Assembly: GCF_003491345.1 (NCBI RefSeq)
Contig: NZ_CP025513.1
Location: 1,105,501 to 1,169,500 of the forward strand
Source of the DNA: Neorhizobium sp. SOG26
GTDB taxonomy: Bacteria > Pseudomonadota > Alphaproteobacteria > Rhizobiales > Rhizobiaceae
Length of the DNA stretch: 64,000 nucleotides
Direction: 5' to 3'
The notes below the pieces were generated by a model that worked only from the letters and a program-made list of their open reading frames with translations, had not been told where the DNA came from and searched no databases. The position numbers were made by a program, and so were the translations under genes. Below are positions 10,018-48,749 of the stretch, piece by piece; the stretch's first letter is position 1; every line of letters begins with the position of its first letter.

Positions 10018-10142
10018 ACCAACGCTTCGGATAACGCGGCAACTCCGTTACACGCGCATCGCTTCACCACTTGCAAAACATCGAGCCACGGTAGAGACTG
10101 CTTAATCTAAAGACGGTCCTCTTGAGTGCTGAAAATATAGGC

Positions 10143-13100
10143 ATGGCAGCGCGCCAACGCATCATCCCCGTCCGGCGAGATTATAATCGCTGGGTGGCAA
10201 ACCAGACGCTGGAAGATTATGCCTTGCGCTTCACCGCCAAGAGCGCCCGTCGATTCTCGTCAAGCCGTATCTCGCATACCGCGATTGGCGCCATCTCGTT
10301 CCTGGCTTTGGAAGCCATTGGGGGAGCAATCACGCTTTCCTATGGCACCACCAATGCGTTCTTCGCGATCATCGCTGCTGCCGTGTCAATGCTCGTCATC
10401 GGACTGCCGATCAGCCGATATGCGATCCGCCATGGCGTCGACATCGACCTGCTCACCCGCGGCGCAAGCTTCGGCTATATCGGCTCGACCATCACCTCGC
10501 TGATCTATGCCGCCTTCACCTTCATGCTGTTTGCGATCGAAGCCTCGATCATGACCGGCGCGCTGGAACTCGTTTTCGGCATCCCGCCCTGGATCGGCTA
10601 TATCATCAGCGCAGTGGTGGTGATCCCGCTCGTCATCTACGGCATTCGGTTGATCTCGCGTTTCCAGCTCGCCACCCAGCCTTTCTGGATCGTGCTCAAC
10701 ATCCTGCCCTTCGTGTTCATCGCCTTCCTCGACTGGGAAAAGTTCGATCTCTGGCGTGCGTTTGCGGGCATAGACCATTCCAATGCTGAAGTGGCGGGTG
10801 CGGCGCCATTCGATCTCCTTGAGTTCGGCGCCGCTTCCGCGGTCATCCTTGCGCTGATGCCGCAGATCGGCGAGCAGGTCGATTTCCTGCGTTTCCTTCC
10901 GCCAGACGGCGTGCAGAAATGGAGGCACAGGATTTCGGTTTTCCTGGCCGGCCCTGGTTGGGTGATTGTCGGGGTACCTAAGTTGCTTGCGGGTTCCTTC
11001 CTCGCCGTGCTGACGCTTGCGACGGGTACGCCGGCGCGCGAAGCCGCCGATCCGGCGCATATGTACCTCACAGCCTTCGGCTACATGATCCCGAACGAGA
11101 CGGCAGCGCTGTTGCTGATGGCTGCCTTCGTGGTGATCTCGCAGCTCAAGATCAACGTGATGAACGCGTATGCCGGGTCGCTCGCCTGGTCGAACTTCTT
11201 CTCCCGTCTCACCCACAGTCACCCGGGTCGCGTCGTCTGGCTCGTCTTTAACGTGGCGATCGCGCTGCTGTTGATGGAGCTCGGCATCTATCGCTTGCTC
11301 GAAGCCACACTTGGTATCTTCTCGATCATTGCCATGGCCTGGCTCTGCACGATCTCGGCGGACCTGTTCATCAACAAGCCGCTCGGCTGGTCGCCGGAGG
11401 GAATCGAGTTCAAGCGGGCGCATCTCTACGACATCAACCCGGTCGGTCTTGGCGCGATGTTCGGGTCCGCCTCGGTAGCGCTTGCCGCCCATTTCGGGCT
11501 GTTCGGCCCGACAATGGCGTCGCTTGCGACTTATGTAACGCTGATCGCATTCCTGCTTTCGCCGGCCATCGCCTTCGCAACCAAGGGCAAGTTTTACCTC
11601 GCCCGCAAGCCGCGCGAGGCCTGGAAGCTGCGCAAATCGATCACATGCTCGATCTGCGAACATCCCTTCGAGCATGAGGACATGGCCTGGTGCCCGGCTT
11701 ATGCAGCCCCGATCTGTTCGCTCTGCTGCACACTCGACAGCCGTTGCCATGACATGTGCAAGCCTCATGCGCGGCTGAACAATCAACTGGCCGTCATCGC
11801 GGGAACAGTCTTGCCAGATACGGTCATGGCGCGGTTGCGCACACGGCTTGGGCGCTATGGGTTGACCGCGCTCCTGTCGATCTCGCTCATTGGGGCGATC
11901 CTGGGGATGATCGCCCACCAGGTTGGACGGGCAACACCGGCGAACGCCGAGGTGATCTACGGCACGGTGCTGATCGTCTTTTTCGTTTTCGCGATCATCG
12001 CGGGCGTCGTGTCCTGGTTCTACGTACTTGCCCATGACAGCCGCGTCGTGGCGGAAGAAGAGTCTTCGCGCCAGAACACGCTTTTGCTGAAGGAGATTGC
12101 CGCACACAAGAAGACGGATGCGGCCCTGCAGGAAGCCAAGGAAACAGCTGAGGCCGCAAACCGCGCCAAGAGCCGCTACGTTGTCGGCCTGTCTCACGAG
12201 TTGCGCACGCCGCTCAATGCCGTCCTGGGTTACGCTCAGATCCTGGAGCGTGACGAAACGATTCCGGCACCTCGCCAGCCCGCGATCAAGGTAATCAAGC
12301 GGTCGGCCGATCATCTCTCAGGCCTGATCGATGGACTCCTCGATATCTCGAAAATCGAGGCCGGGCGGCTTCAGGTTTATTCCAACGAGATCAACATCCA
12401 GGATTTCCTCGACCAGATTGTAGAAATGTTCCGGCTTCAGGCGCAGGCGAAGGGGCTCGTCTTCGAGCACGAACGTGCCCACGCCCTGCCCCAATATGTC
12501 CGTACGGACGAAAAACGCCTGAGGCAGATCCTCGTGAACCTGCTGTCCAACGCGATCAAGTTCACCGACGAAGGCAAGGTCCGGTTTGACGTCTCTTATC
12601 GCAGCCAGGTGGCGACCTTCACGGTCTCTGACACTGGCCGCGGAATTGCGGAGAAAGATCTTGGCCGCATCTACGAACCTTTCCAGCGTGGCGAGGCAGA
12701 TAGCATTCGGCCGATGCCCGGGCTCGGGCTAGGCCTCACGATCACTCAACTGCTGACGAACACGCTTGGCGGCGAGATCGCTGTTGCCAGTACCAAGGGT
12801 GAAGGCTCGGTCTTCAAGGTGCGACTGATGCTTTCCGCCGTCGAACGGCCCAATACTGCACCGGCGCCTGAAAAAACGATCATCACCTATAGCGGCCCGC
12901 GCCGCACGATCGTTGTCGTGGATGACAACGAGGATCACCGTGACCTGATGCGCGAGGTCCTGGTGCCGATGGATTTCGTGGTGCTGACTGCAAGCAGCGG
13001 GACGGACTGCCTGACGTTGATCGAGGGCGTGGTGCCGGACCTTTTCCTCATCGACATCTCGATGCCCGGCATGAACGGGTGGCAGTTGGTGGAAAAGCTA

Positions 13101-13529
13101 CGTGATCTCGGCCAGACCGCGCCCATCGTCATGCTTTCTGCCAATATCGGTGACGGAGTGGTGAGCAATCCGGGCACGGACGGCCATAACGATGCGATCG
13201 CCAAGCCCGTGGATCTTCGCAGGCTCTCCGACAAGCTCGCCGTACATCTCGGGCTCTCCTGGATCTATGAAAGTGACGCGGCGCCTCCCGTTGCAACGGA
13301 TCCGCGACCGGCGGTAAAGGCGCCTGCGCCGGACCATCTGCAGGATCTCTTGCGGCTCGGTGAGATCGGTTATGTTCGCGGAATCGAGGCCAAGCTTCAC
13401 GATCTGGCGCAGAGCGATGATACCCGCGCCTTTGCCGAAGAAGCGAGCACATACGTCAAGGCATTCGACCTGGCGGGTTACATGAAATTCGTGAGTGACA
13501 CTGACATGCAAAGGGCAAGCGATGCCTGA
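10143..13529 (+). CDS. NCS1 permease-like hybrid sensor histidine kinase
   Basis: A fused receptor kinase. From the ATG at 10143 (1128 aa; an in-frame TTG at 10122 is possible) the order is: about 12 membrane helices resembling nucleobase/allantoin (NCS1) permeases, residues ~20-485; a Cys-rich module with CxxC at 502/505 and cysteines at 517, 525, 528, 529, 535 and 539; two further helices (~565-630); a coiled coil; HisKA with phospho-acceptor His685 in 'SHELRTPLNAVLGY'; HATPase with 'GLGLGLTI'; a receiver with Asp971 in 'LIDISMPGMNGW'; and a ~110-residue tail. It likely senses a nitrogenous solute at its permease domain and signals to the LuxR regulator that overlaps its stop. Divergent from urtA. 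Confidence 0.9.
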   Translation: MAARQRIIPVRRDYNRWVANQTLEDYALRFTAKSARRFSSSRISHTAIGAISFLALEAIGGAITLSYGTTNAFFAIIAAAVSMLVIGLPISRYAIRHGVDIDLLTRGASFGYIGSTITSLIYAAFTFMLFAIEASIMTGALELVFGIPPWIGYIISAVVVIPLVIYGIRLISRFQLATQPFWIVLNILPFVFIAFLDWEKFDLWRAFAGIDHSNAEVAGAAPFDLLEFGAASAVILALMPQIGEQVDFLRFLPPDGVQKWRHRISVFLAGPGWVIVGVPKLLAGSFLAVLTLATGTPAREAADPAHMYLTAFGYMIPNETAALLLMAAFVVISQLKINVMNAYAGSLAWSNFFSRLTHSHPGRVVWLVFNVAIALLLMELGIYRLLEATLGIFSIIAMAWLCTISADLFINKPLGWSPEGIEFKRAHLYDINPVGLGAMFGSASVALAAHFGLFGPTMASLATYVTLIAFLLSPAIAFATKGKFYLARKPREAWKLRKSITCSICEHPFEHEDMAWCPAYAAPICSLCCTLDSRCHDMCKPHARLNNQLAVIAGTVLPDTVMARLRTRLGRYGLTALLSISLIGAILGMIAHQVGRATPANAEVIYGTVLIVFFVFAIIAGVVSWFYVLAHDSRVVAEEESSRQNTLLLKEIAAHKKTDAALQEAKETAEAANRAKSRYVVGLSHELRTPLNAVLGYAQILERDETIPAPRQPAIKVIKRSADHLSGLIDGLLDISKIEAGRLQVYSNEINIQDFLDQIVEMFRLQAQAKGLVFEHERAHALPQYVRTDEKRLRQILVNLLSNAIKFTDEGKVRFDVSYRSQVATFTVSDTGRGIAEKDLGRIYEPFQRGEADSIRPMPGLGLGLTITQLLTNTLGGEIAVASTKGEGSVFKVRLMLSAVERPNTAPAPEKTIITYSGPRRTIVVVDDNEDHRDLMREVLVPMDFVVLTASSGTDCLTLIEGVVPDLFLIDISMPGMNGWQLVEKLRDLGQTAPIVMLSANIGDGVVSNPGTDGHNDAIAKPVDLRRLSDKLAVHLGLSWIYESDAAPPVATDPRPAVKAPAPDHLQDLLRLGEIGYVRGIEAKLHDLAQSDDTRAFAEEASTYVKAFDLAGYMKFVSDTDMQRASDA

Positions 13530-29935: not shown

Positions 29936-31666
29936 TCAAGCAATTGGTTCGGCCTGCTTCAGAATGCCTCTGAAGGTGAAACAAGTTTCCTGCTCATCCG
30001 ATGACACATCGATCATGCCGCCATGCGCCTTGGCGATCTCGGAGGCAATGTATAGACCAAGGCCAAGCCCCTGCACGCCGGGACGTCCTTCGCCGCGCTT
30101 GAACGGCAGGAACAGCTTGCTGATCTGCCCGGTAGGTATTGCGCTCCCGCCATTGGTGACGCTGATTTCGAGAACCTGGTCACGCAAATGAGCCCGGATG
30201 AGCACCGGTGTGGCGGATGCGCCATGAGTAACCGCGTTGAACAGCAGGTTGGACGCCATCTGTGCAATCCGAAGGTGATCGACGGTGAGGCTGCGCGGCA
30301 GGTCGAATATCGCCGAGATCTCCCGCTCCGGATGCGCCACCCGCAACTCATCAACAACATGCTGGAGCGTGTCGGCAAGATCAGCGTCGGTCATGGTAAG
30401 CGAAATGCCGCCACCCATGCGGGCACGAGCAAGATCCATGACGTTGTCAACCAGACCCGCCATCCGCGTGACACTCGTCTTCATCAGCTTGAGGATCAGC
30501 GGGCTCCGCTCGGTCCAGCCTTCCTTCAGCAGGCGTGCCGTGCCGGCATCGATCGCGGCAATCGGATTGCGAAGGTCATGTCCGAGCACCGCGATAAACT
30601 GCTCCCGAAGCTCGGCGAGCTCGCGCTCCCGTTCCAGCGACGCCTGCGCCGATCGCAGCCGCGTCTCAGCATCGAGATGATAGGCAATAAGCTCGGCGAA
30701 CAGCTTGAAGGCGCCGAGGACCTCCGGGTTCTTCACCTTTGCCGGGTTCGGATCAATGGCGCAGAGCGTGCCCCAGAAGGTGCCGTTGGCAAGGATGATC
30801 GGCTCCGAGATGTAGCTCCTGAGCCCGTAGATACGTGGTGTATGGTGGTCGCGATATTGCGGATCGTCCGCGGCATCATCAAAAACGATCGTCTGCCGGT
30901 GCCCCCTGATTTCGTTGCAGAGCGTGCTTTCGATCGGCAGTTCGTCACCCGGCTTCAAGCCGAAGCCGATCGGATCGAGCACCTGGCAAGCGATCCACCG
31001 CGCCTCCGTGACCCGCGCCACCGCCGCGAAGCCCATGCCGGTCATCCGCAACACGACATCGAGGATAGTCGGGACGGCAGCGATGGCCGAAACGCGGCTC
31101 ACATCAAGCGCGAATTCTTCCGGAGAACCGGAAGTCGAGCTGAACAAAGCGGCCATGTGTCTGGCGAGCGAAACATGCGCTTCCAGGTTCTGAAGCGCCG
31201 TCGTCGCAGCGTCGGCCAGGGCTTCCAGCGTCTCGATTTCCCAGTCGTCGGGCGTGTAGGTCTGCGACCAGTAGGCGCCGATAGCCGCAATCGGATCCTC
31301 TCGACGCACTGGTGCCATGGCCAAGGCTTTCACGAATGTCTCGCTGTAAAGCGCGTGCGGGATGCGCGCGTCCGTCGAAATGTCCGGCACGACCGCCGTC
31401 TCGCGGTTGGCCATCGACCAGCCGCTGATGCAGATGGAGGCCGGAAACTTCTGTCCTTTCCAGAGGGGGCCAATCGCATCTTCTTCCACGTAGTGGCAGA
31501 GATCGCCCTCTTTGAGGATCACGGCGACGCCTTCGCAGCCGATCAGAGACCGGGCGCTGGTGCGGATGGTGTCGACGATCTCGTCAAAGCTGCGGGCGCG
31601 AGAAATCTTCGCAAGCGACCGGGTCAGCGTAGCGAACGGGGTGGAACTCCTGGTACGCTGATCCAT
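29936..31666 (-). CDS. GAF-GAF sensor histidine kinase
   Basis: A soluble 576-aa kinase. GAF domain 1 spans about residues 15-165 and GAF domain 2 about 195-335, followed by a coiled coil, HisKA with His363 in 'AVLGHDLRNPIAAID' and HATPase with 'GLGLGLYIASEIAKAHGG'. There is no membrane segment and no receiver, and no cognate response regulator is adjacent. 'CEGVAVIL...CHYVEEDAIGPLW' and similar GAF text are seen in rhizobial photosensor-like kinases, but no bilin-binding cysteine motif is evident. I start at ATG 31666 with AAAGGA upstream; a GTG lies 6 bp earlier. Confidence 0.88.
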   Translation of the reverse strand: MDQRTRSSTPFATLTRSLAKISRARSFDEIVDTIRTSARSLIGCEGVAVILKEGDLCHYVEEDAIGPLWKGQKFPASICISGWSMANRETAVVPDISTDARIPHALYSETFVKALAMAPVRREDPIAAIGAYWSQTYTPDDWEIETLEALADAATTALQNLEAHVSLARHMAALFSSTSGSPEEFALDVSRVSAIAAVPTILDVVLRMTGMGFAAVARVTEARWIACQVLDPIGFGLKPGDELPIESTLCNEIRGHRQTIVFDDAADDPQYRDHHTPRIYGLRSYISEPIILANGTFWGTLCAIDPNPAKVKNPEVLGAFKLFAELIAYHLDAETRLRSAQASLERERELAELREQFIAVLGHDLRNPIAAIDAGTARLLKEGWTERSPLILKLMKTSVTRMAGLVDNVMDLARARMGGGISLTMTDADLADTLQHVVDELRVAHPEREISAIFDLPRSLTVDHLRIAQMASNLLFNAVTHGASATPVLIRAHLRDQVLEISVTNGGSAIPTGQISKLFLPFKRGEGRPGVQGLGLGLYIASEIAKAHGGMIDVSSDEQETCFTFRGILKQAEPIA

Positions 31667-31811
31667 GATCACCGTCCTTTCCGGCGATGATGCCTTTAGC
31701 GATATCTAAGTTTCTGCAATTTCCGCGTGCTTTTGCAAGCGAAACTTCGTTTGCCGGCCGGAAGCGTACGGTGGTCGAACGGCTTAGGCGCCCTAATTTC
31801 TTGCGATCAGG

Positions 31812-32429
31812 ATGAACGGGACCAACGCAGTTGAACGGATCTGGATGAGCGGCGGGGCAGAGAACATTCCAACGACTCGAGCGATCTCCAATCATTCCAA
31901 CGCCCGCTGGGTGATGCTTTCCTGTATTGCTATTGCTGTCCAGATCAGCGCACTCTCGCTTCTTGGTCGTCATTGGTTCTGCGGTTGCGGAACGATCGAG
32001 TTCTGGCAGGGGACGCTGGACCCGATGCAGAACTCGCAGCAACTCACCGATCCTTACAGCTTTCTGCATTTCGCCTTCGGATGCGGCCTGTTTGTCTGGC
32101 TGAAGATGATCCGGCCGCAATGGCCGCTCATGCGCCGCGCCACCTATGCCATCATCAGCAGCATGATCTGGGAGGTGATGGAGAACCTGCCTTTCATCAT
32201 CCAGATCTTCGGCGCGGAAGGAAGCGGGATGGACTATTACGGCGATAGTATCGCCAACTCACTTGGCGATACTGCTGCCGTGCTCGTTGGTTTTCTTGCA
32301 GCCTCGCGCATGCCAACTCCCGTCACAGTTTCAGCCATCGTCGCGCTCGAAATCGTGACCTTCATCATGATCGGCGACAGCGTGATTGCGGGCCTGCTTC
32401 GGATCACCACCTCGACAAGTATGATCTAG
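31812..32429 (+). CDS. DUF2585 (UPF0314) family membrane protein
   Basis: A 205-aa inner-membrane protein with about five hydrophobic segments. The family hallmarks 'GRHWFCGCGTIEFWQG', 'NSQQLTDPYSFLHFAFG', 'WEVMENLPFIIQIF' and 'DYYGDSIANSLGD' are clear. The family is nearly confined to Rhizobiales and has no established function. The start is uncertain: neither Met1 nor Met12 (31845) has a good ribosome site. It is 79 bp upstream of crtX on the same strand and divergent from the GAF kinase. Confidence 0.82.
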   Translation: MNGTNAVERIWMSGGAENIPTTRAISNHSNARWVMLSCIAIAVQISALSLLGRHWFCGCGTIEFWQGTLDPMQNSQQLTDPYSFLHFAFGCGLFVWLKMIRPQWPLMRRATYAIISSMIWEVMENLPFIIQIFGAEGSGMDYYGDSIANSLGDTAAVLVGFLAASRMPTPVTVSAIVALEIVTFIMIGDSVIAGLLRITTSTSMI

Positions 32430-32508: not shown

Positions 32509-33792
32509 TTGCACTTCGCGCTGATCTGCCCACCGTTCAAGAGCCATATCGCAGTCTTCGAAACGCTCGGGCAAGAGCTTCTTCGGCGTGGCCACCGCGT
32601 CACCTTTCTCGTCAACAAGGGTATAGACCACGAGGTCTCATCGCAATTTGACGTTCAGCCGGTGGAGGGAACAGATCGGCGTCAGTTGGACGGCATCATC
32701 AAGCGTGCGTCGCGGCCAAGCGGTCCGCTTGGCATCCTGCGAACGGTTCATGACACGGCGGTACTGTCCGAAGCGTTCTGCAGGCACGGATCGGCTCAAC
32801 TGCGGCAGCTTGGCGTAGACGCAGTGCTCGGCGACCAGATGGAACCGGCAGCCGGGCTTGTTTCTCGCCATCTCCGGCTGCCGCTGATCTCGATCGCCTG
32901 TGCTGTTCCTCTGGAACGTGACACGGGAATCCCGCTTCCCTTCCTGTCGTGGCCGTACGACCCGAGCCCAAAGGGGATCAAGCGGAACGAGGGAGGCGAA
33001 CGCGTGTCGCGCCTGCTGCTGACCGAGCAACGTCGGCTGATCCAGCGCTGGTCCAAGTGCTTCCGCTTGGGTGCGGAATTTGATGATCTTCAGTCCTGCC
33101 TTTCGGATCTCGCGACGATCGCCCAGACAACGGAAGGCTTCGATTTTCCGCGCGCATCGCATAACAAGCGGCTCCACATGGTCGGCCCCATTCGGGGGGT
33201 GCAGAAAGCGGCTGGTGTCCCCTTCCCCATCGACCCGCAGAGGCCCTTCGTCTTCATGTCGCTCGGCACACTGCAGGGTCACCGGTTCCGGCTCTTTCGA
33301 ACCGCCGCGCGGGCCTGCCGCGAGCTTGATGTGCAATTGCTTGTTGCGCATTGCGGCGGCATGAGCAAAGGCCAGGAAAAGGCTTTGGGCGCCAGCTGGG
33401 TGACGGATTTTGCTCCGCAACGGGAGGTGTTGGAGCGTGCAGACCTCTGCATCACGCATGGCGGGATGAATACGGTCATGGACGCGCTGGAGTTCGCGAC
33501 GCCGATGATCGCGCTGCCGATCGCCTTCGACCAGCCCGGTGTGTCCGCCCGCATCGTCCACCACAGGGTGGGCTTGCGTCTCTCGCCGCATTTCCTGACC
33601 ACCGCGAAGATGAAACAGGCAATCCAGACGCTGCTTTCCGATTCCACCTATTCCGAAAAAGCTAAGGCTATGGACCAATCCATTGCCGCGGCCGGAGGTC
33701 TCAGGAAGGCTGTTGATATCATTGAGAGCACCGTCTCTGGAAAGGTGGGAGCCGACGGCGCACCAGAGGCGAAAGTCGCAGGCGCGAGTTGA
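32509..33792 (+). CDS. crtX: Zeaxanthin/astaxanthin glucosyltransferase CrtX
   Basis: UDP-glucose-dependent transferase that glucosylates the hydroxyl ends of zeaxanthin or astaxanthin. The 427-aa protein follows enterobacterial CrtX end to end: 'MHFALICPPFKSHI', 'DQMEPAAGLVSRHLRLPLIS', 'IACAVPLERDTGIPLP', 'SLGTLQGHRFRLFRTAARAC', and the nucleotide-sugar region 'ITHGGMNTVMDAL...FDQPGVSARIV'. The start is a TTG at 32509 with AGGA eight bases upstream. It converges on crtZ with 25 bp between stops. Together they point to a glycosylated ketocarotenoid. Confidence 0.9.
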   Translation: MHFALICPPFKSHIAVFETLGQELLRRGHRVTFLVNKGIDHEVSSQFDVQPVEGTDRRQLDGIIKRASRPSGPLGILRTVHDTAVLSEAFCRHGSAQLRQLGVDAVLGDQMEPAAGLVSRHLRLPLISIACAVPLERDTGIPLPFLSWPYDPSPKGIKRNEGGERVSRLLLTEQRRLIQRWSKCFRLGAEFDDLQSCLSDLATIAQTTEGFDFPRASHNKRLHMVGPIRGVQKAAGVPFPIDPQRPFVFMSLGTLQGHRFRLFRTAARACRELDVQLLVAHCGGMSKGQEKALGASWVTDFAPQREVLERADLCITHGGMNTVMDALEFATPMIALPIAFDQPGVSARIVHHRVGLRLSPHFLTTAKMKQAIQTLLSDSTYSEKAKAMDQSIAAAGGLRKAVDIIESTVSGKVGADGAPEAKVAGAS

Positions 33793-33817
33793 TCCCGTCG
33801 GCCCACAGGAACTTTAC

Positions 33818-34348
33818 TCAGTTCGAAACGGCTTGATGATCCTCGTCCTGCAAGGCGCGCGGATCATATTTTCGCTTGTTCTCCTGGAGCTTCTTCACAA
33901 GCCGGTCCGCTGGTTCGGCATACACGAAACCGAAGGAAACGCAGCCATCGCGGCCTTCCACCGCGTGGTGCAGGCGATGCGCCTGGTAGACGCGCTTCAG
34001 GTAACCCTTTCGCGGCACATATTTGAATGGCCACCGCTGGTGCACGAGGCCATCGTGCATGAAGAAATAGAGCACGCCGTAAATCGAGATGCCGACGGCG
34101 ATCCACCACAGCGGCCATAACCAGGCTGAACCGATCCAGAAGAGCGCGACCGCAAAGCAGGCGAAGATCACGGCGTAGAGATCGTTCTTCTCCAGAGTTT
34201 CATCATGTGGCTCATGATGCGACTTGTGCCACTTCCAGCCCCAGCCGTGCATGATGTGCTCGTGCGACCATGCCGCGAACCACTCCATGAACACGACGGT
34301 GCCGACAACCAGTACGGTCGGGACCAGATAAGACAGTATGACTTCCAT
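33818..34348 (-). CDS. crtZ: Beta-carotene 3-hydroxylase CrtZ
   Basis: Di-iron membrane hydroxylase that adds 3-OH groups to beta-ionone rings (beta-carotene to zeaxanthin, canthaxanthin to astaxanthin). From ATG 34348 (GAGGT site) it is 176 aa, the normal CrtZ length. All histidine clusters are present: 'SHEHIMHGWGWKWHKSHHEP', 'MHDGLVHQRWPFKY' and 'HRLHHAVEGRDGCVSFGF'. It starts 8 bp after crtW ends, so the two are translated together. Last gene of the minus-strand run. Confidence 0.95.
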   Translation of the reverse strand: MEVILSYLVPTVLVVGTVVFMEWFAAWSHEHIMHGWGWKWHKSHHEPHDETLEKNDLYAVIFACFAVALFWIGSAWLWPLWWIAVGISIYGVLYFFMHDGLVHQRWPFKYVPRKGYLKRVYQAHRLHHAVEGRDGCVSFGFVYAEPADRLVKKLQENKRKYDPRALQDEDHQAVSN

Positions 34349-34356
34349 TCTCGACC

Positions 34357-35118
34357 TCAGTTCGTTTTCGCGCGCAATGCGAGTTGACGCTGCGCGGGCA
34401 ATTTCCACCACGGCACCCAAGGCGCGTCATGGTGTTCGTGGTGATACCCGAAGTGGAAACACGTCAGCAAAGACAGGATGGGGGAGAAGTCGTTGCTGCG
34501 CGCCCGGTGTTGATCGGTAAAGGTTTCCTCGTCAATCCTGTGGGGTCGGTAAGTCCCGAAATAGAAGAGCTGTATTGACGACAGGATGCCCGGCAACGCC
34601 CAGAAGACCAGCATCGTCGGGAAGCGCTCCTGTAGGATGACCAGGTAGATGACGACGGCGACCGTCAAGGTGCCGAATTCGCGCCAGCCGAAGTAGTGCC
34701 GGAAGAACTTGAGGTACCAAGGCAAGAAGCTCGATGGATGCTCGACATCGAAATCCGGATCCTCGGCCGTTCCCGCATGCCTGTGGTGAGCATGGTGGTT
34801 CTTATAGAGTTTATCGTACGAGAACCCGGCATAAATGAAGACGCAGAACCGGCCGATCGCCCGGTTCAGCTTCGGGTGTCGCGGCGCGAGCGAACCGTGC
34901 ATGGAGTCATGGGCGATGATGAACAGGCCGACGCTCAGCCAGCACTGCAAGGCGATGACCAGTGGAGCCGCGAGGAGATGAGACGTAACGCTCCAGTCGA
35001 CAAGGAAAATCGCGCTGATATGGACGGCAAGCCAGGCGAGGATGACGAGGCTCGCCAGGACCAGGCCGATGGTTGTGTGACTGCGGCCGATCCGGGCATC
35101 AGTGGTTGGGGCAGCCAT
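34357..35118 (-). CDS. crtW: Beta-carotene 4-ketolase CrtW
   Basis: Di-iron membrane ketolase that adds 4-keto groups to beta-ionone rings, giving canthaxanthin or, with CrtZ, astaxanthin. The 253-aa protein has the ketolase histidine boxes 'IIAHDSMHGS', 'KNHHAHHRHAGTAEDPDFD' and 'CFHFGYHHEHHDAPWVPWW', plus four hydrophobic segments. It begins 13 bp after the ABC-2 permease gene and lies 8 bp before crtZ. Genes for making beta-carotene (crtE, B, I, Y) are not in this window. Confidence 0.95.
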   Translation of the reverse strand: MAAPTTDARIGRSHTTIGLVLASLVILAWLAVHISAIFLVDWSVTSHLLAAPLVIALQCWLSVGLFIIAHDSMHGSLAPRHPKLNRAIGRFCVFIYAGFSYDKLYKNHHAHHRHAGTAEDPDFDVEHPSSFLPWYLKFFRHYFGWREFGTLTVAVVIYLVILQERFPTMLVFWALPGILSSIQLFYFGTYRPHRIDEETFTDQHRARSNDFSPILSLLTCFHFGYHHEHHDAPWVPWWKLPAQRQLALRAKTN

Positions 35119-35131
35119 TGTGCATTTCCTT

Positions 35132-36343
35132 TTAGAACTGCAGGCGCCGTCGAGCCAGCATCAATGCGACCAGGGTTCCGACAGCAGCCATCGCTAGCAG
35201 GCAAAATATCTCCGGAAGGATGTCCGACAAGCCCTCGCCCCGCCACAAAGTGCCGTAATAGGCCTCGATGACCCAGGTATTGGGGGTATAGTGCCCGAGA
35301 TCCTGAAGCCATTGCGGCATCATGAATCGCGGCACCATCGAACCTCCGATAGCCGAACAGATCAGCACCACAAATGTGGAGATAGTTTGCGCCTGGTGCC
35401 GGGTCGTACTGGCACTTGCGACCGCCAGTGCCAGACCCGCGGCCCCCAGGGAAGCAGCAATCGACGTCAGCAGCCAAAGCCCGATCTGCTGGGTCAGGTC
35501 GAGATGGTAGACCAGCGCAGCAACAGCGAAGATCACGCCGACCTGCAGCAGGCCTTGGATCGTGACGAACAGGAACTTGCCGAGCACGACCGCATCCGTT
35601 CCCGCGGGCCCGACGGCGATCCGATCCAAAATCCCAGAGTTGCGCTCCTCGATCAGCGTCGCGGCGCTTTGCAGGGCGGAGAACAGCAGGAACATGATCG
35701 CAACGGCGCCGGCGTAATAGGTGATGCTCGCGTTGGAGCCAACTGACGAACCGACCGAAATTGTCTTGATCAGGTTGCCCGAGCTCCTATCATTGGTTGT
35801 ATCGCCATCGCCCTGACGTGCCAGCGCCTCCACGGTTGCAGAAAGCCGGGCAAACTGCTCCGGTGTTAAGGCTCCAACGACGCTCTCGAAGGTCGATGCT
35901 GTCCTCAGCAGGGCCAGATCCGGCAGCTCGGTTTGGACAAGCGCCTGAATGCGACCGGCCAAAATTGCACCAGCCATGGTCTTGCTCGGCTCCACCAAAA
36001 CCGTCACCGGTGGTGCGTCGACATCTTCCAGGCGGCCGCCAATGAAGACCCCCACATCCGCCTGCCCCCGTTCAACCCGCGCGGCGACATCATCTCGATT
36101 CGCGAGTGACGGAGAAACATGCAATGCCGGGTCGCTCCGCAGCGCCCTTTCGAAGGCTTCGGTCGAGGGCGTGGATGAAGCCGCCCCGAAAGCTACCTTC
36201 AACTGCAGCTTGTCGCTTGCTGTCGCCGCAAAAATGGAAGCAAGGATCAGGAATATCGCCGCCGGCAGCACGAATGCCAGGACCAGAGCACCCCGATCGC
36301 GCAAAAGGCTCAGGGTCATCACACGAAGCATGGCGAAGATCAT
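35132..36343 (-). CDS. ABC-2 type transporter permease
   Basis: Membrane subunit of an export-type ABC transporter, 403 aa: one N-terminal membrane segment, a large extracytoplasmic domain (~40-215), then five or six segments with the ABC-2 signature 'LIEERNSGILDRIAVGPAG'. It overlaps the ATPase gene by 4 bp (ATGA) and is 13 bp from crtW. Homologues export drugs, lipids or polysaccharides; here the position suggests a carotenoid or carotenoid-glycoside cargo, or a maintenance role in the pigmented membrane. Cargo is inference. Confidence 0.88.
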   Translation of the reverse strand: MIFAMLRVMTLSLLRDRGALVLAFVLPAAIFLILASIFAATASDKLQLKVAFGAASSTPSTEAFERALRSDPALHVSPSLANRDDVAARVERGQADVGVFIGGRLEDVDAPPVTVLVEPSKTMAGAILAGRIQALVQTELPDLALLRTASTFESVVGALTPEQFARLSATVEALARQGDGDTTNDRSSGNLIKTISVGSSVGSNASITYYAGAVAIMFLLFSALQSAATLIEERNSGILDRIAVGPAGTDAVVLGKFLFVTIQGLLQVGVIFAVAALVYHLDLTQQIGLWLLTSIAASLGAAGLALAVASASTTRHQAQTISTFVVLICSAIGGSMVPRFMMPQWLQDLGHYTPNTWVIEAYYGTLWRGEGLSDILPEIFCLLAMAAVGTLVALMLARRRLQF

Positions 36344-37287
36344 GCAGCATCTTCTCCGGCGGTCCAGCCGACCGGATGGGAGAGTTGCAGCAACAGGCTG
36401 TCCAGCCCGGGCCGCCTCAGGCGGATCTCCCGAGGCGAAAGGCCTGCATGCTGCAGAACTGCAGAGACTTCAACGATGGATCCTTCGCCGACCCGACTCC
36501 AGTTAGGCGCGCCACCTGCGGATGAGAAACCAAGTTTATGAAGTACCTTTTCCTGCACCGGCGACAGACGCTGCCCGAACTCCAGGATAATCTCGCTCTG
36601 CGCTCCAAATGCAGCGTCCAGCAGCGCACGCGGCGCTCCTTGTGGGGCAATCACGCCGTCGTGGAGAAACCCAACGCGATCGCAAAGGCTCTCCGCCTGC
36701 TGCAGGTCATGCGTGACCAGCAGTATGCCCATTCCACGGGTGCTCAGCCTCTTGATGAAGCTTTCGAGGCTGTTGCGGGCATCAAGATCAACGCCCACCA
36801 TGGGTTCATCGAGTATCAGCAAGGCGGGGTGGTGCAGGATAGCCGCTGCGATGTTGGCACGTCGCTTCCAGCCTCCAGACAAGGTCTCAACGAGATCGTT
36901 GCCGCGCTCATGCAGGTTGGAAACGTGCCCCACCTCTTCGATCGCAGCTTTGGTTTGGGCTCGAGTGAGCCCCGAGATGCGGCCGAACACTTCGAGGTTC
37001 TCGTAGACCGTAAGGTGTGGGTAGAGCGCGATTTCCTGTGGCACGAGCCCGATTGACCGCGACAGATCCTGCCGCTTGCTCTGGCCGGCAATGTCAATCG
37101 TACCCGCTACGGGCCGTAAGCGTCCGCAGATGGTGCGCACGAAGGTTGTCTTCCCCGCGCCATTGCCACCCAGCAGACCGAAAATTTCCCCAGGCTCCAC
37201 GGTGAGATCAATCCCTTTCAGGACGTTTTTATCACCGTAACGGGCGCGTAGGTCACGGACCTCAAGGGCAGCGGCGCTCTCTATCAT
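36340..37287 (-). CDS. ABC-2 type transporter ATP-binding protein
   Basis: A 315-aa ATPase of the DrrA/CcmA type with Walker A GGNGAGKT (about 38-45), signature 'LSGGWKRR' (a tryptophan variant of LSGGQ), Walker B 'LLILDEPMVGVD' and a ~90-residue C-terminal extension. It drives the ABC-2 permease that it overlaps. It begins 81 bp after the bacteriophytochrome gene on the same strand, with no terminator seen between them. The ribosome site is weak. Confidence 0.9.
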   Translation of the reverse strand: MIESAAALEVRDLRARYGDKNVLKGIDLTVEPGEIFGLLGGNGAGKTTFVRTICGRLRPVAGTIDIAGQSKRQDLSRSIGLVPQEIALYPHLTVYENLEVFGRISGLTRAQTKAAIEEVGHVSNLHERGNDLVETLSGGWKRRANIAAAILHHPALLILDEPMVGVDLDARNSLESFIKRLSTRGMGILLVTHDLQQAESLCDRVGFLHDGVIAPQGAPRALLDAAFGAQSEIILEFGQRLSPVQEKVLHKLGFSSAGGAPNWSRVGEGSIVEVSAVLQHAGLSPREIRLRRPGLDSLLLQLSHPVGWTAGEDAA

Positions 37288-37368
37288 GGCGCACCACTAT
37301 CACCCACCAAGGCTGCCGTCCATTTACAGCGGTACGTTAAAGCCCCAAGCTGACCAAATCGCACCCGA

Positions 37369-39504
37369 TTACGGCGTCTGGATCGGTGCGGTCAGGACGA
37401 CGCGCAACCCCGGCAGATTGTCTTCCTCGTCGAGATGCCCACCGAGCCGTTCAACGATGGCCTGCAGCATCCGTGAACCGAAACCGCCGGATCCCGTATT
37501 CTGCTTGCCCTTGCCGCGATCGGCGACGATCAGCCGCAGCATTCCGCGATGTTGTTCAAGCTTGATCCCGAGTGGACCGGCCCCGCCGCCATAGGCGTAT
37601 TTCTGGGCGTTAATCACCAGTTCCGTCAGGACCAGACCAACATTCACCGCCTTGTCGGTGGCAATCAGGATCGGCGCGAGATCGAGATCCAGTTGCTCCT
37701 GCCAACTTGCATCCATGCCCTGCGTCATATCGATGAGAAGCGTCTCGATATAGCGGGAGAGATCGATCACCTCGACGCTGTCGTCCTGGTACAGCCGGCG
37801 ATGGACGAGAGCGACTGCGTTGAGGCGCTTCTGCGCCTCGTCGAGCGTAGCCTTGACCTCCTGGGACGCCGCATCACGGGACTGGAGGCGCAGGAATGCC
37901 GACACGAGCTGGAGCGAGTTCTGGACGCGGTGGTTCACCTCCTTGAGGAGATAATCCTTCTGCCCGAGCAGGCTCTGGTTTTCACGCAGGCTTGTCGAAA
38001 GCTCCCGGTTCAGCTCTCGCATGCGCTGGTTGTTGCGTTGCTCGAGCATCAGGCGAACGATGCGACCTGCCGCTTCGACCTCCGCGAGGCTCCATGGGGG
38101 TGCCTTGCCTCGCACGCTCTCCGTCCAGGCCTCGAAAGATGCGCGCGGCTGCAGCGTCGCATCCGGCTCCAGCGATACGCCCTTGTGCGGATTGCCGGCC
38201 CATTTCACGACCTCGATCTGCTCCGCCCGGAACCACATGAGGATCGTCGGGACCTCGGTCGACATTGTCACCGCAAGCAGGCCGCTCACCTGTTCACGGA
38301 ACGCTTCCGCTTCCGGCCACTGGTGCGACAGGCTGGAGCTTGCGAATGGCTGGCGCGCCGCTGGAAGCCGCACGTGATCAGCAATCCTGCGAAGGTCGAT
38401 CTTGTCCGGCACCTTGCCGAAGACGAACAGGTCCCTGCCCTGGGCAGCGGCAAAGCCGTCCGCGGTGAGAAGACCTGCAATGGCCGGACCGGATTTTTCA
38501 AAGAAGTCGTGAAGCGAGCCGTCGCTTCCCAGTTGCGCCAAGACTGCGTCCTCCTGCGACCGCAACCGGATGCGCTCCCGGTAGAGCTCGGCCTCCTCCT
38601 TTGACCGGATCTGCCTCGAAAGTGCATTCGAAAGCGCCTGACATGCGGTGCGCGTCGCCAAGGGGATCGATCGAGGCTGGCTGTGGTGGCAGGCGATAAG
38701 CCCCCAGAGGATACCGTCCTTGACGATCGACACTGAAGCGGAGGCCGCAACGCCCATGTTCTTGAGATACTGGACGTGAACCGGCGAAACGCTGCGCAGC
38801 GTCGAATCGCTGAGATCCAGTCCGGTCAGATCAACGTCGGATCGGATGGGCTGCGGCACGTAACCGACGTCCGGGATGACCCGAGACCGGTTCCGCAGGT
38901 AAAGCGCGCGCGCCTGCTTGGGGATATCTGAGGCTGGGAAATGATGGTTCATGAAGCTCGACATGCCGTCGGCCGTACTTTCAGCAATGACGACACCGGC
39001 ATCATCGTCGAGAAACTGGTAGATCATCACCCGGTCGTAACCGGTTAGCTCGCGGAAGATCGCTGCGCCTTCGCGACAGAGATCGGCCACACTGGTCGTT
39101 CGCTCGAAGCGCGAGCTCGCCGCGTCCAGCGTCGTGAGGAATGGCACGGCCTCCACAGGTTCGGCTTCCGCGGGCTCGAACTCGAGAACCAGAAAGGCGC
39201 CGGATCGATAGGCAACGACGTCTGCGGCACCAGCCGGCGTATCAATACGCCCAAGCGGGGTCAGCTTTCCGGTCGTGGCGCCTTCAAGCCTCTGGCAAAG
39301 GCGTTCACTGAGAAAGGCGGAGACTTCCGTGCCGCGGCTATAGGCAGGGATGAAGCGCGAAACTTCGCCCGCTTCTCCGACTGTTCGCAGCGACGCCGGC
39401 TCGACGACGAGAAGCACACCATGGGGCTGGATGGAGCCCGGGATATGGATCGGCTCCCGGTCGCACGAGGTGATATCTGGCACTGCGTAACGCTGTTCGT
39501 TCAT
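37369..39504 (-). CDS. bphP: Bacteriophytochrome histidine kinase (PAS-GAF-PHY-HisKA_2)
   Basis: Red/far-red photoreceptor kinase, 711 aa. The biliverdin-binding Cys14 lies in 'TSCDREPIHIPGSIQPHG'; the PAS domain runs to ~115, the GAF domain (~130-300) has the chromophore motif PASDIP at 190-195, and the PHY domain (~310-490) has the tongue motif PRASF (453-457). The output kinase is of the HisKA_2/HWE type with His525 in 'KEVNHRVQNSLQL' and an ATPase ending 'GSGGFGSRMLQAIVERLGG'. No haem oxygenase or response regulator is adjacent. It precedes the ABC-2 and crtWZ genes on the same strand. Confidence 0.94.
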   Translation of the reverse strand: MNEQRYAVPDITSCDREPIHIPGSIQPHGVLLVVEPASLRTVGEAGEVSRFIPAYSRGTEVSAFLSERLCQRLEGATTGKLTPLGRIDTPAGAADVVAYRSGAFLVLEFEPAEAEPVEAVPFLTTLDAASSRFERTTSVADLCREGAAIFRELTGYDRVMIYQFLDDDAGVVIAESTADGMSSFMNHHFPASDIPKQARALYLRNRSRVIPDVGYVPQPIRSDVDLTGLDLSDSTLRSVSPVHVQYLKNMGVAASASVSIVKDGILWGLIACHHSQPRSIPLATRTACQALSNALSRQIRSKEEAELYRERIRLRSQEDAVLAQLGSDGSLHDFFEKSGPAIAGLLTADGFAAAQGRDLFVFGKVPDKIDLRRIADHVRLPAARQPFASSSLSHQWPEAEAFREQVSGLLAVTMSTEVPTILMWFRAEQIEVVKWAGNPHKGVSLEPDATLQPRASFEAWTESVRGKAPPWSLAEVEAAGRIVRLMLEQRNNQRMRELNRELSTSLRENQSLLGQKDYLLKEVNHRVQNSLQLVSAFLRLQSRDAASQEVKATLDEAQKRLNAVALVHRRLYQDDSVEVIDLSRYIETLLIDMTQGMDASWQEQLDLDLAPILIATDKAVNVGLVLTELVINAQKYAYGGGAGPLGIKLEQHRGMLRLIVADRGKGKQNTGSGGFGSRMLQAIVERLGGHLDEEDNLPGLRVVLTAPIQTP

Positions 39505-39742: not shown

Positions 39743-39770
39743 GTAACAAAAGGGCGGGAATGACCCGCCC
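39743..39770 (-). terminator. Rho-independent terminator of the flavin monooxygenase gene
   Basis: On the minus strand AGGGCGGG, a 5-nt loop and CCCGCCCT form a perfect 8-bp stem followed by TTTTGTT. It begins 10 bp after the monooxygenase stop and separates that gene from bphP. Confidence 0.85.
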
Positions 39771-39779
39771 TCCGTTTGT

Positions 39780-47105: not shown

Positions 47106-47177
47106 ATTGGCTTGCAGCGCTTGCGGCGTGATGTAGCATGTGACGCAAGGAACTCATGTCGCGCATTGGGAGCAATC

Positions 47178-48749
47178 ATGAACTACGACGCCGTCGTCAT
47201 CGGAGCAGGCCACAACGGGTTGGCGGCTGCGATCGAACTTGCTTCCAAGGGCTGGTCCGTGGCTGTCGTCGAGGCGAATGTCGAACCGGGCGGCGCGGTT
47301 AAGACGCGTGAGCTCACCCTGCCGGGCTTTCGGCACGACCTGTGCGCCATGAACCTTTCCATGTTCGCGGGCTCCGCCTTCTTCAACAAGAACAAGGACG
47401 ATCTCATCGCGCACGGGCTGGGCCTCGTTCCCGCACCGAACTGCTTCGCAAGCGTCTTCAGGGACCAGACCTGGCTCGGCGTCAGCACCAATCTCGAAGA
47501 TACGGCCGCACGCATCGCTGCACTCTCTGAGAAGGATGCTGCGGCCTGGCGGACGATGCTTGCTGAATTTGGCGCCGATGCACCGCATATCTTCGGGCTT
47601 CTCGGTTCGCCCATGCCGTCGCTTGCCTCGGCGAAGGTTGCCTGGAAGGCCTGGAGGAGCCGCGGCACGCGCTGGCTCTATGACACGCTGAGACTGCTTG
47701 TCGGCTCGCCTCGCGACTTTCTCGACTCCCGGTTCGAAAATCCCAAGGTCAAGGCAATGATGGCAGCCTGGGGTCTTCATCTCGATTTTTCACCGGATGT
47801 CGCGGGCGGCGCGCTCTTCCCTTATCTCGAATCCATGGCGAACCAGGCATTCGGCATGGTAATCGGGCAAAACGGAGCCGATACGATCGTTAAGTCGATG
47901 GTGTCGCTCTTCAAGGCAAAAGGCGGGGAGCTGATCCTCGGAGCCGCTGTCGATCGGGTTATCACCGAGGGCGGCAAAGCCACGGGTGTCAGGCTCGCTG
48001 ATGGGAGGACATTATCGGCGCGCAAGGCAGTAATCGCCAACGCGCATCCGCAACTGGTGTTCGGCAAGCTGCTTCCCGCTGACCCTGCGCGAGCCGAATT
48101 CGACGCGCGGCTTTCCAAGTACCGTGCCGGTCCAGGCACGATGATGATCCATCTGGCGCTGGACAGCCTGCCAGATTGGACGGCAGGCGAGGAGTTGAAG
48201 ACGTTCGCTTATGTCCACCTGGCGCCGGACCTAGAGATGATGAGCCGCGTCTATACGGAAGCACTGGGTGGCTTGCTGCCGGTTGAGCCGGCGCTGGTTG
48301 TGGGGCAGCCAACCGCGGTGGACCCCGGCCGTGCGCCTGACGGCAAGCATGTTCTCTGGGTGCAGGTACGCGTCCTTCCGGCGGAGATCCGGGGCGACGC
48401 TGCGGGCGAAGTCACCAGCGCCGACTGGGATCAGGTCAAGGATTCCTATGCCGATCGCGTCATGAACATCCTGGAAGGTTATGCGCCGGGAATCGGCGGC
48501 AAGGTGCTCAGCCGCTCGGTCTTCTCGCCGATCGATCTGGAGCGCGAGAACCCTAACCTCATCGGCGGCGACAACCTCGCTGGCTCCCATCACCTGGACC
48601 AGAACTTCCTGTTCCGACCGGTGCCTGGTTACTCCCGCTACAAGACGCCGGTCCCGTCGCTCTATCTGTGCGGCGCCTCCACCTGGCCCGGTGCCGGAAC
48701 CGGTGCGGGTTCGGGCTTCATGCTGGCACAGATGCTGGGCGGCAAATAG
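47178..48749 (+). CDS. FAD-dependent oxidoreductase, phytoene desaturase-like
   Basis: A 523-aa amine-oxidase-superfamily flavoprotein. The N-terminal dinucleotide fold 'DAVVIGAGHNGLAAA' is followed by 'VVEANVEPGGAVKT', and the C-terminal FAD motif is 'STWPGAGTGAGSGFMLA'. The closest recognisable relatives are NAD(P)/FAD oxidoreductases of the PYROXD2/CrtI-like group, not true bacterial CrtI, so a carotenoid role is not claimed. ATG 47178 has a GGGAG site. It is divergent from the importer-2 SBP and probably oxidises the imported compound or a product of it. Confidence 0.82.
   Translation: MNYDAVVIGAGHNGLAAAIELASKGWSVAVVEANVEPGGAVKTRELTLPGFRHDLCAMNLSMFAGSAFFNKNKDDLIAHGLGLVPAPNCFASVFRDQTWLGVSTNLEDTAARIAALSEKDAAAWRTMLAEFGADAPHIFGLLGSPMPSLASAKVAWKAWRSRGTRWLYDTLRLLVGSPRDFLDSRFENPKVKAMMAAWGLHLDFSPDVAGGALFPYLESMANQAFGMVIGQNGADTIVKSMVSLFKAKGGELILGAAVDRVITEGGKATGVRLADGRTLSARKAVIANAHPQLVFGKLLPADPARAEFDARLSKYRAGPGTMMIHLALDSLPDWTAGEELKTFAYVHLAPDLEMMSRVYTEALGGLLPVEPALVVGQPTAVDPGRAPDGKHVLWVQVRVLPAEIRGDAAGEVTSADWDQVKDSYADRVMNILEGYAPGIGGKVLSRSVFSPIDLERENPNLIGGDNLAGSHHLDQNFLFRPVPGYSRYKTPVPSLYLCGASTWPGAGTGAGSGFMLAQMLGGK

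Follow-up and report, generated by a model that had tools for sequence, protein, structure and literature searches.

A pair of ATP-binding cassette (ABC) transporter genes, encoding an ATPase and an ABC-2 permease, lies among carotenoid tailoring genes in a 64,000-nucleotide stretch of Neorhizobium sp. SOG26 (contig NZ_CP025513.1, positions 1,105,501 to 1,169,500; hereafter the window), and comparison with other genomes indicates that this pair is very probably a working part of carotenoid metabolism. It probably moves the carotenoid itself, and we infer that it is likely to represent a subfamily of ABC exporters that would take carotenoids, or forms of them modified by tailoring, away from the inner membrane, with both substrate and direction being predictions. 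What was observed directly is the two genes with their fold class, and the fact that they keep their place in carotenoid clusters whose chemistry differs.

The window belongs to contig C3 (1.17 Mb) of a 4.56 Mb genome in three contigs. The six open reading frames (ORFs) described in the initial annotation, i.e. a first reading of this DNA, were recovered at the same positions, with bphP, the ATPase gene, the permease gene, crtW and crtZ collinear on the minus strand, spaced by exactly 81, -4, 13 and 8 bp, and crtX converging on crtZ. That annotation had also claimed that the ABC pair exports the pigment. The pair is borne out as a companion of the pigment pathway, both by synteny in 80 loci and by nine of nine strong matches in genome draws, and the transport itself is a prediction.

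The ABC pair in carotenoid gene clusters

The ATPase gene (36340..37287, minus strand) is located directly upstream of the permease gene (35132..36343, minus strand), which it overlaps by 4 bp, and both are placed among crtW-, crtZ- and crtX-like genes, i.e. the arrangement by which we delimit the subfamily. The ATPase matches Pfam ABC_tran and has Walker A, LSGG, Walker B and H-loop motifs, and the permease, assigned to the carotenoid-linked subfamily, matches ABC2_membrane_3 (6e-35). Named genomes were scanned with a four-sequence permease alignment, which gave 296 relatives, and the best 80 loci were used. Neighbouring genes were called by tblastn, with crt genes other than crtE taken at E<=1e-20 and CrtN/CrtP-like matches counted as crtI. 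At least 8 kb of sequence was present on both sides in 53 of the 80 loci, the other 27 lacking 8 kb on at least one side.

The ATPase gene was directly upstream of an ABC2_membrane_3 permease gene in 79/80 loci, the sequence of the remaining one (L040) ending there, and a crt gene other than crtE was found in 73/80, or in 48/53 of those flanked by 8 kb or more on either side. Seven loci had no such gene, i.e. L064 and L085, with less than 1 kb downstream, and five loci from Xanthobacter. At E<=1e-10, matches were obtained for crtE in 64 loci, the crtI family in 59, crtZ in 58, crtB in 55, crtY in 52, crtW in 27, crtX in nine, DUF2585 in five and a phytochrome sensor in none. The initial annotation had regarded an ABC exporter within a crtWZ operon beside a phytochrome gene as unfamiliar; the ABC pair together with crt genes thus turned out to be widespread, and the phytochrome was absent from the other loci.

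Gene order is also recurrent. A crtE-like gene was located upstream on the same strand in 58/80 loci, most often before the ATPase gene, and crtZ or crtW lay directly downstream of the permease gene in 56/80. In 45/80 loci, from Devosia, Caulobacter and others, the ATPase-permease-crtZ/W run converges on crtB-crtI on the opposite strand, while at L027 and L028 crtE-ATPase-permease-crtW-crtZ converges on crtB-I-Y, and other orders occur, e.g. in Paracoccus L046, where crtY-I-B shares the strand, and in Halomonas L058. Apart from crt genes, the ABC pair and fni (type 2 isopentenyl diphosphate isomerase), clustering of the ORFs round the 80 loci yielded only reverse-strand shadows and unannotated families confined to Caulobacter and related loci (at most 11 loci). 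In a tree of 84 permeases, the window sequence groups with L033 and Rhizobium wenxiniae L035 (100/97), with a long-branch warning. Of note, at locus L110 the ABC pair is found together with crtY, crtI and crtB on a contig that is filed under Planctomycetota; in the tree this locus sits on a long branch among the proteobacterial sequences, suggesting either transfer or misbinning. Among the plasmids of PLSDB, one, from Microvirga, carried the permease at E<=1e-20.

The specificity of this association was assessed in draws of 385 genomes of the class (Alphaproteobacteria) and 247 of the family (Rhizobiaceae), the Neorhizobium genome being in both. Permeases at E<=1e-40 were found in nine distinct genomes across both draws, this one included, and all nine adjoin carotenoid genes. 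Three weaker matches (E 1e-15 to 1e-21) were not linked to crt genes, G126 and G179 not being crtY-positive, and the stretch round the weak permease match L032 of G532 contained no crt gene. As a control, 27 ABC2_membrane_3 matches were collected in 11 genomes, 23 of them outside the subfamily; none of these 23 came within 10 kb of a located crtW or crtY gene, five genomes outside the family not having been searched for crtY. The nearest (G367:2955547) was separated from crtW by about 12.8 kb, its distance to the crtE of that cluster being about 9.7 kb.

The pair is not confined to clusters for C40 carotenoids. In seven Methylobacterium loci, L031 and the Microvirga plasmid, it lies beside CrtI-family oxidases, a GT2 glycosyltransferase and an acyltransferase, i.e. 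in C30-type clusters (at Methylobacterium L100 the sequence is cut and one oxidase only is visible). The C40 and C30 routes have no common prenyl precursor beyond farnesyl diphosphate. Since one ABC pair is found in pathways that do not share geranylgeranyl diphosphate (GGPP), the carotenoid, rather than a prenyl precursor, would be the simplest common substrate. In Methylobacterium extorquens AM1, a glycosyltransferase and an acyltransferase encoded beside crtP make an acyl-glucosyl C30 carotenoid, according to deletion mutants, with squalene given as the starting compound (PMC10448405). The glycosyltransferase, acyltransferase and crtP genes of this cassette (META1p3663-3665) are in the order that is also seen downstream of the permease gene at the Methylobacterium loci, so that, judging from gene order and the kinds of protein, it may be the same cassette. 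It differs from the window in its product, a C30 acyl-glucoside versus a predicted C40 ketocarotenoid, and the words 'transporter' and 'permease' are absent from the main text of that paper.

Fold, cargo and precedents

A permease model built from 84 sequences (pLDDT 89.6) shows a first transmembrane helix, an extracytoplasmic domain at about residues 44-200 and then the remaining transmembrane helices. Its best matches among solved folds (Foldseek E 1.5e-10) were the insect ABCH-9C ceramide complex (Z 22.6, 347 aligned residues within 1-400, root-mean-square deviation 14.5), NosDFY (Z 20.4, 225 aligned, deviation 3.5), ABCA4 and other ABCA (ABCA1/7) and ABCG (ABCG1/2) proteins. The permease has the transmembrane fold class of these structures in common, at 9-22 % identity among the matches listed, and none of them is titled a bacterial carotenoid transporter. 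We take this fold class to be that of the type V ABC exporters. Many type V members move lipids, and the modelled fold would be compatible with export of a membrane lipid, while it proves no substrate. A sequence search of PDB matched no chain. The best NCBIfam names for the ATPase and permease included the DrrAB and NodI exporters, which are alike in general build. Their curated cut-offs were missed by a wide margin, i.e. for DrrA (TIGR01188; 193.6 versus 312.45 bits), DrrB (TIGR01247; 57.2 versus 223.05 bits) and NodI of the nodulation-factor exporter NodI/NodJ (182.5 versus 521 bits), and PADLOC gave just weak ATPase matches to two mads models.

These fold relatives, which include a ceramide complex and ABCA/ABCG proteins, would also suit a transporter that serves the pathway with another cargo, e.g. 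a prenyl lipid, a phospholipid that would give way to carotenoids, or just the acylated or glycosylated product. The glycosyltransferase or acyltransferase genes of some clusters agree with such a cargo, and so do the five Xanthobacter loci (L077, L081, L088, L096 and L105), as there the ABC pair is accompanied only by a crtE-like gene and fni (Pfam was run on L077 only). With nothing else of the pathway near the pair, any other carotenoid genes of Xanthobacter have to be located apart from it, a situation like that in the window genome. In contrast, the C30-type clusters hold the same pair, and their route reportedly starts from squalene and not from GGPP (PMC10448405); furthermore, with crtX in only 9/80 loci, CrtX glycosides are not the common denominator. 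We therefore regard a different cargo as rather unlikely.

Several observations weigh against carotenoid export by the ABC pair. The Xanthobacter loci fit a role in prenyl-lipid transport too, and a shared fold indicates no substrate, as NosDFY, a high match, is no lipid exporter by title. No recurrent partner gene for onward carriage to the outer membrane emerged round the 80 loci, the unlabelled families in at least eight loci being unannotated and restricted to Caulobacter and its relatives. The 80 loci are the top of the 296 relatives, with the other 216 unseen, and many of them are closely related to one another in the tree. Only 6/31 crtY-positive genomes of the family draw have the ABC pair, and only 2/12 crtW loci outside the window, both from one genus, carry it. 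As most carotenogenic genomes of that draw are without it, the pair is not generally needed for carotenoids. Similarly, the Paracoccus marcusii cluster is listed as crtWZYIBE plus crtX, with no ABC gene named in that list (PMC13036509).

Published descriptions offer some precedents. In Fulvimarina pelagi, crtZ and crtY have been described with an ABC-transporter gene and a major facilitator superfamily (MFS) transporter gene beside them, and a Sphingomonas astaxanthinifaciens cluster as containing a putative carotenoid transporter gene (PMC4962014). The Fulvimarina case resembles the window in having an ABC-transporter gene beside carotenogenic crtZ and crtY; it differs in that the statement there is sequence-based, names an MFS gene too and, in section 2.4 of that paper, makes no mention of a phytochrome, the two being compared by description only. 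For yeast, Pdr10 is listed in a review as an ABC transporter that secretes carotenoids (PMC12557945), and work cited by PMC10223009 deals with beta-carotene secretion through an endogenous ABC transporter of Saccharomyces. We recognised no functional study of an ABC transporter from a bacterial carotenoid cluster in the open literature, subscription papers lying mostly outside this search.

Taken as a carotenoid exporter, the ATPase and permease would act late in carotenoid metabolism. The cargo would be pigment at or near completion, which in this genome would mean a ketocarotenoid of the astaxanthin type, produced by the CrtW- and CrtZ-like enzymes and perhaps glycosylated by the CrtX-like enzyme. 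The pair would pick it up at the inner leaflet of the inner membrane and flip or extrude it toward the outer leaflet or the outer membrane.

A divided cluster and the phytochrome gene

The tailoring genes behind the permease gene have counterparts in related clusters. The crtW-like gene (34357..35118, minus strand), single in the genome, encodes a putative beta-carotene ketolase, named CrtW-like because the cut-off of NCBIfam CrtW (NF045690) was missed (241 versus 350 bits); the CrtW-like proteins of L035 and L028, which belong to full beta-ring clusters, are likewise below it (234 and 230 bits). Its histidine boxes (HDSMH at 70, HHAHH at 108 and HHEHH at 226) are those of the membrane di-iron fold. 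The gene for a crtZ-like beta-carotene hydroxylase (33818..34348, minus strand) follows, with Pfam FA_hydroxylase above cut-off, histidine motifs present, no NCBIfam match and 75-83 % identity to crtZ of L033, L035 and L041. Its 3' end is separated by 25 bp from that of the convergent crtX-like gene (32509..33792, plus strand, TTG start), the product of which is a glycosyltransferase of the UDPGT/MGT type, above the cut-off of Pfam UDPGT and below that of NCBIfam MGT (150.7 versus 260 bits). This crtX is 67-68 % identical to crtX of L033/L035 and 47 % identical to the copies near crtW in L020/L023.

The remaining pathway is located on another contig, C1, where the Pfam phytoene synthase model matches in two places. 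In one of them crtY, crtI and crtB lie in a row beside fni and a prenyl synthase gene, the crtE candidate, and we therefore rejected the possibility of an incomplete pathway. NCBIfam cut-offs were passed by CrtY, the CrtI family protein and the isomerase, while the crtB product had CrtB as its highest-ranking name without reaching the cut-off. The prenyl synthase reached 213.8 bits as farnesyl diphosphate synthase and a lower 160.3 bits as CrtE, each score falling short of its cut-off, and could be either enzyme. No close relative of the ABC pair was found at this place, a 30 % ATPase being the only match. The window itself encodes at 47112-48749 a flavin adenine dinucleotide-dependent oxidoreductase of the CrtI/CrtO superfamily, with 206 bits to CrtO (cut-off 1000) and 25 % identity to CrtI, which may be a common non-carotenoid relative.

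By comparison, backbone, tailoring and exporter genes are all in one cluster in Rhizobium wenxiniae L035 and L033, with the exporter/tailoring block of L035 located between DUF2585-crtX and crtB-I-Y-fni, followed by crtE. In the five other genomes of the family with the permease, crtY lies on the same contig at 3.9-4.9 kb (start to start), and the crtY on C1 is closest by E-value to the crtY of G164, G085, G232, G208 and G225, which are exactly these five ABC-pair genomes. We infer that a formerly single cluster has probably become separated in this genome. It is therefore tempting to see the position next to bphP as a chance rearrangement that parted the tailoring/exporter block from the backbone, has no regulatory role and is compatible with export. 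The single cluster of R. wenxiniae, as opposed to two contigs here with crtX facing crtZ, and the relationship of crtY speak for such an event, which we regard as fairly probable; conversely, two-step gene gain would also yield two places, and the move could have been kept for a useful promoter, which a single genome cannot tell. Recent foreign DNA was rejected on the basis of composition, the GC content of eight genes (from DUF2585 to bphP, plus a neighbouring histidine kinase gene) being 0.56-0.62 as compared to 0.608 for the window. The three genomes of the same genus in the draw lacked crtW, crtY, the permease and a close bphP orthologue at the thresholds used, and the only near match in a comparison with plasmids was to a Neorhizobium plasmid, for a 12 % piece in the bphP part.

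The bphP gene (37369..39504, minus strand) encodes a protein of 711 aa with PAS_2, GAF, PHY and HisKA_2 domains, all four above Pfam cut-off. With its PAS-GAF-PHY core and an N-terminal bilin-binding cysteine (Cys14, in CDREPIH), it is a bacteriophytochrome; further motifs are PASDIP at 190, PRASF at 453 and the H-box NHRVQNSLQ at 524. It remained under the cut-off of the BphP equivalog model NF041576 (330 versus 1040 bits), no receiver domain was found with Pfam, and the genome encodes two further phytochromes. A hybrid histidine kinase of 1135 aa that does contain a receiver domain is encoded elsewhere in the window (10122-13529).

Bacteriophytochrome control of carotenoids is known from Deinococcus, and phytochrome/crt loci from Bradyrhizobium. 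The initial annotation had proposed that red/far-red light sets the end-group chemistry of the ketocarotenoids, with bphP and the four genes behind it forming one light-controlled operon that would also govern export. Unlike those systems, in which a phytochrome influences the pigment, what we find is adjacency in one genome, with no conserved linkage: bphP was near the ABC pair in 0/80 loci, near crtW or the permease in 0/14 fetched loci, and, for 15 close orthologues of the family (at least 47 % identity), within about 9 kb of crt or ABC-pair genes in 0/15, where only generic ATPase/transporter matches were seen. Several of the 14 and 15 loci are short at contig ends (e.g. L019, L025, L133 and L135). 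We therefore rejected bphP as a member of the conserved module, which it joins in this genome only. Moreover, at E<=1e-60 a phytochrome match was lacking in G085, G164 and G225, i.e. in half of the six genomes of the family that have the ABC pair. These three are the only crtY genomes without one, and since all three have the pair, it is independent of a phytochrome.

Phytochromes and carotenoid genes do co-occur. In the family draw, a phytochrome was present in 28/31 crtY genomes versus 71/216 others (p 8e-10, Fisher p-values ignoring kinship), and crtY in 9/16 genomes with a member of the bphP subgroup versus 22/231 without (8/14 versus 9/95 by genus). Other BphP paralogues show the same trend, with crtY in 22/89 versus 9/158, and the subgroup was therefore rejected as special evidence. 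A common lit lifestyle explains the co-occurrence of phytochromes and crtY as well as regulation does.

What speaks for a common transcript is the position of the genes on the same strand, with a gap of 81 bp (37288..37368, minus strand) in which the site scan revealed no terminator-like or sigma-70-like site. A terminator-like hairpin behind an LLM monooxygenase gene (39749..39773, minus strand; 10-pair stem with seven GC pairs and a T-rich tail) precedes bphP, which may thus open a new transcription unit; the terminator scan overall gave eight sites versus a shuffle mean of 7.3, i.e. about chance level. Nor is there a trace before the ATPase gene of the region upstream of it in L035/L033, as the gap shows no significant likeness to that region (60 and 79 of 500 shuffles score as high). 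Co-transcription of bphP with the ABC pair in this genome is thus conceivable, at slightly below an even chance, and part of the transcription of the module may come from the bphP promoter. Even with read-through, light would not necessarily control pigment chemistry, and no response regulator or DNA-binding gene was found within the run. Taken together with the missing linkage, the ABC-pair genomes without a phytochrome and a co-occurrence that fits a shared lifestyle, this makes the light-controlled operon unlikely; that red/far-red light sets end-group chemistry is itself improbable and is not supported by our data. Quite improbable as a whole is the still wider idea that a widespread exporter family sends C40 hydroxy- and ketocarotenoids and C30 acyl-glucosides outward in Alpha- and Gammaproteobacteria and was captured here behind a phytochrome gene, with light tuning export and ketolation.

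Neighbouring genes and implications

Before crtX lies a gene (31812..32429, plus strand) for a DUF2585 (UPF0314) membrane protein (Pfam PF10755, 126 bits). Among 62 chosen genomes of the family, 31 with and 31 without crtY, there were 58 DUF2585 matches, of which 21, one in each of 21 genomes, lay within 10 kb of crtY or crtW and 37 elsewhere, the latter also in genomes without crtY. A crt-linked paralogue of DUF2585 therefore exists; it is the one found in the window, and DUF2585 adjoins crtX in R. wenxiniae L035 and L033 as well. We rejected it as a part of the ABC module, since four of the five other ABC-pair genomes of the family (G085, G164, G208 and G225) have no DUF2585 match at all. 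The paralogue is possibly a membrane protein of carotenoid metabolism and would be a second uncharacterised membrane protein travelling with the pigment genes in this family. Divergent from DUF2585 is a gene for a GAF-GAF-HisKA histidine kinase (29936-31672) without a receiver domain in the protein; at E<=1e-10 it had no counterpart close to the ABC pair at any of the 80 loci.

To our knowledge, how very hydrophobic pigments get from the inner leaflet to the outer layers of Gram-negative bacteria is an unsolved problem. If the ABC pair does move carotenoids, the exporter family would be the missing transport step of bacterial carotenoid biology. With a candidate exporter of just two genes that is found again and again in carotenoid clusters, one type of which has proven tailoring enzymes and occurs in a genus amenable to laboratory work, this question can be tested directly; such a candidate could also matter for astaxanthin production.

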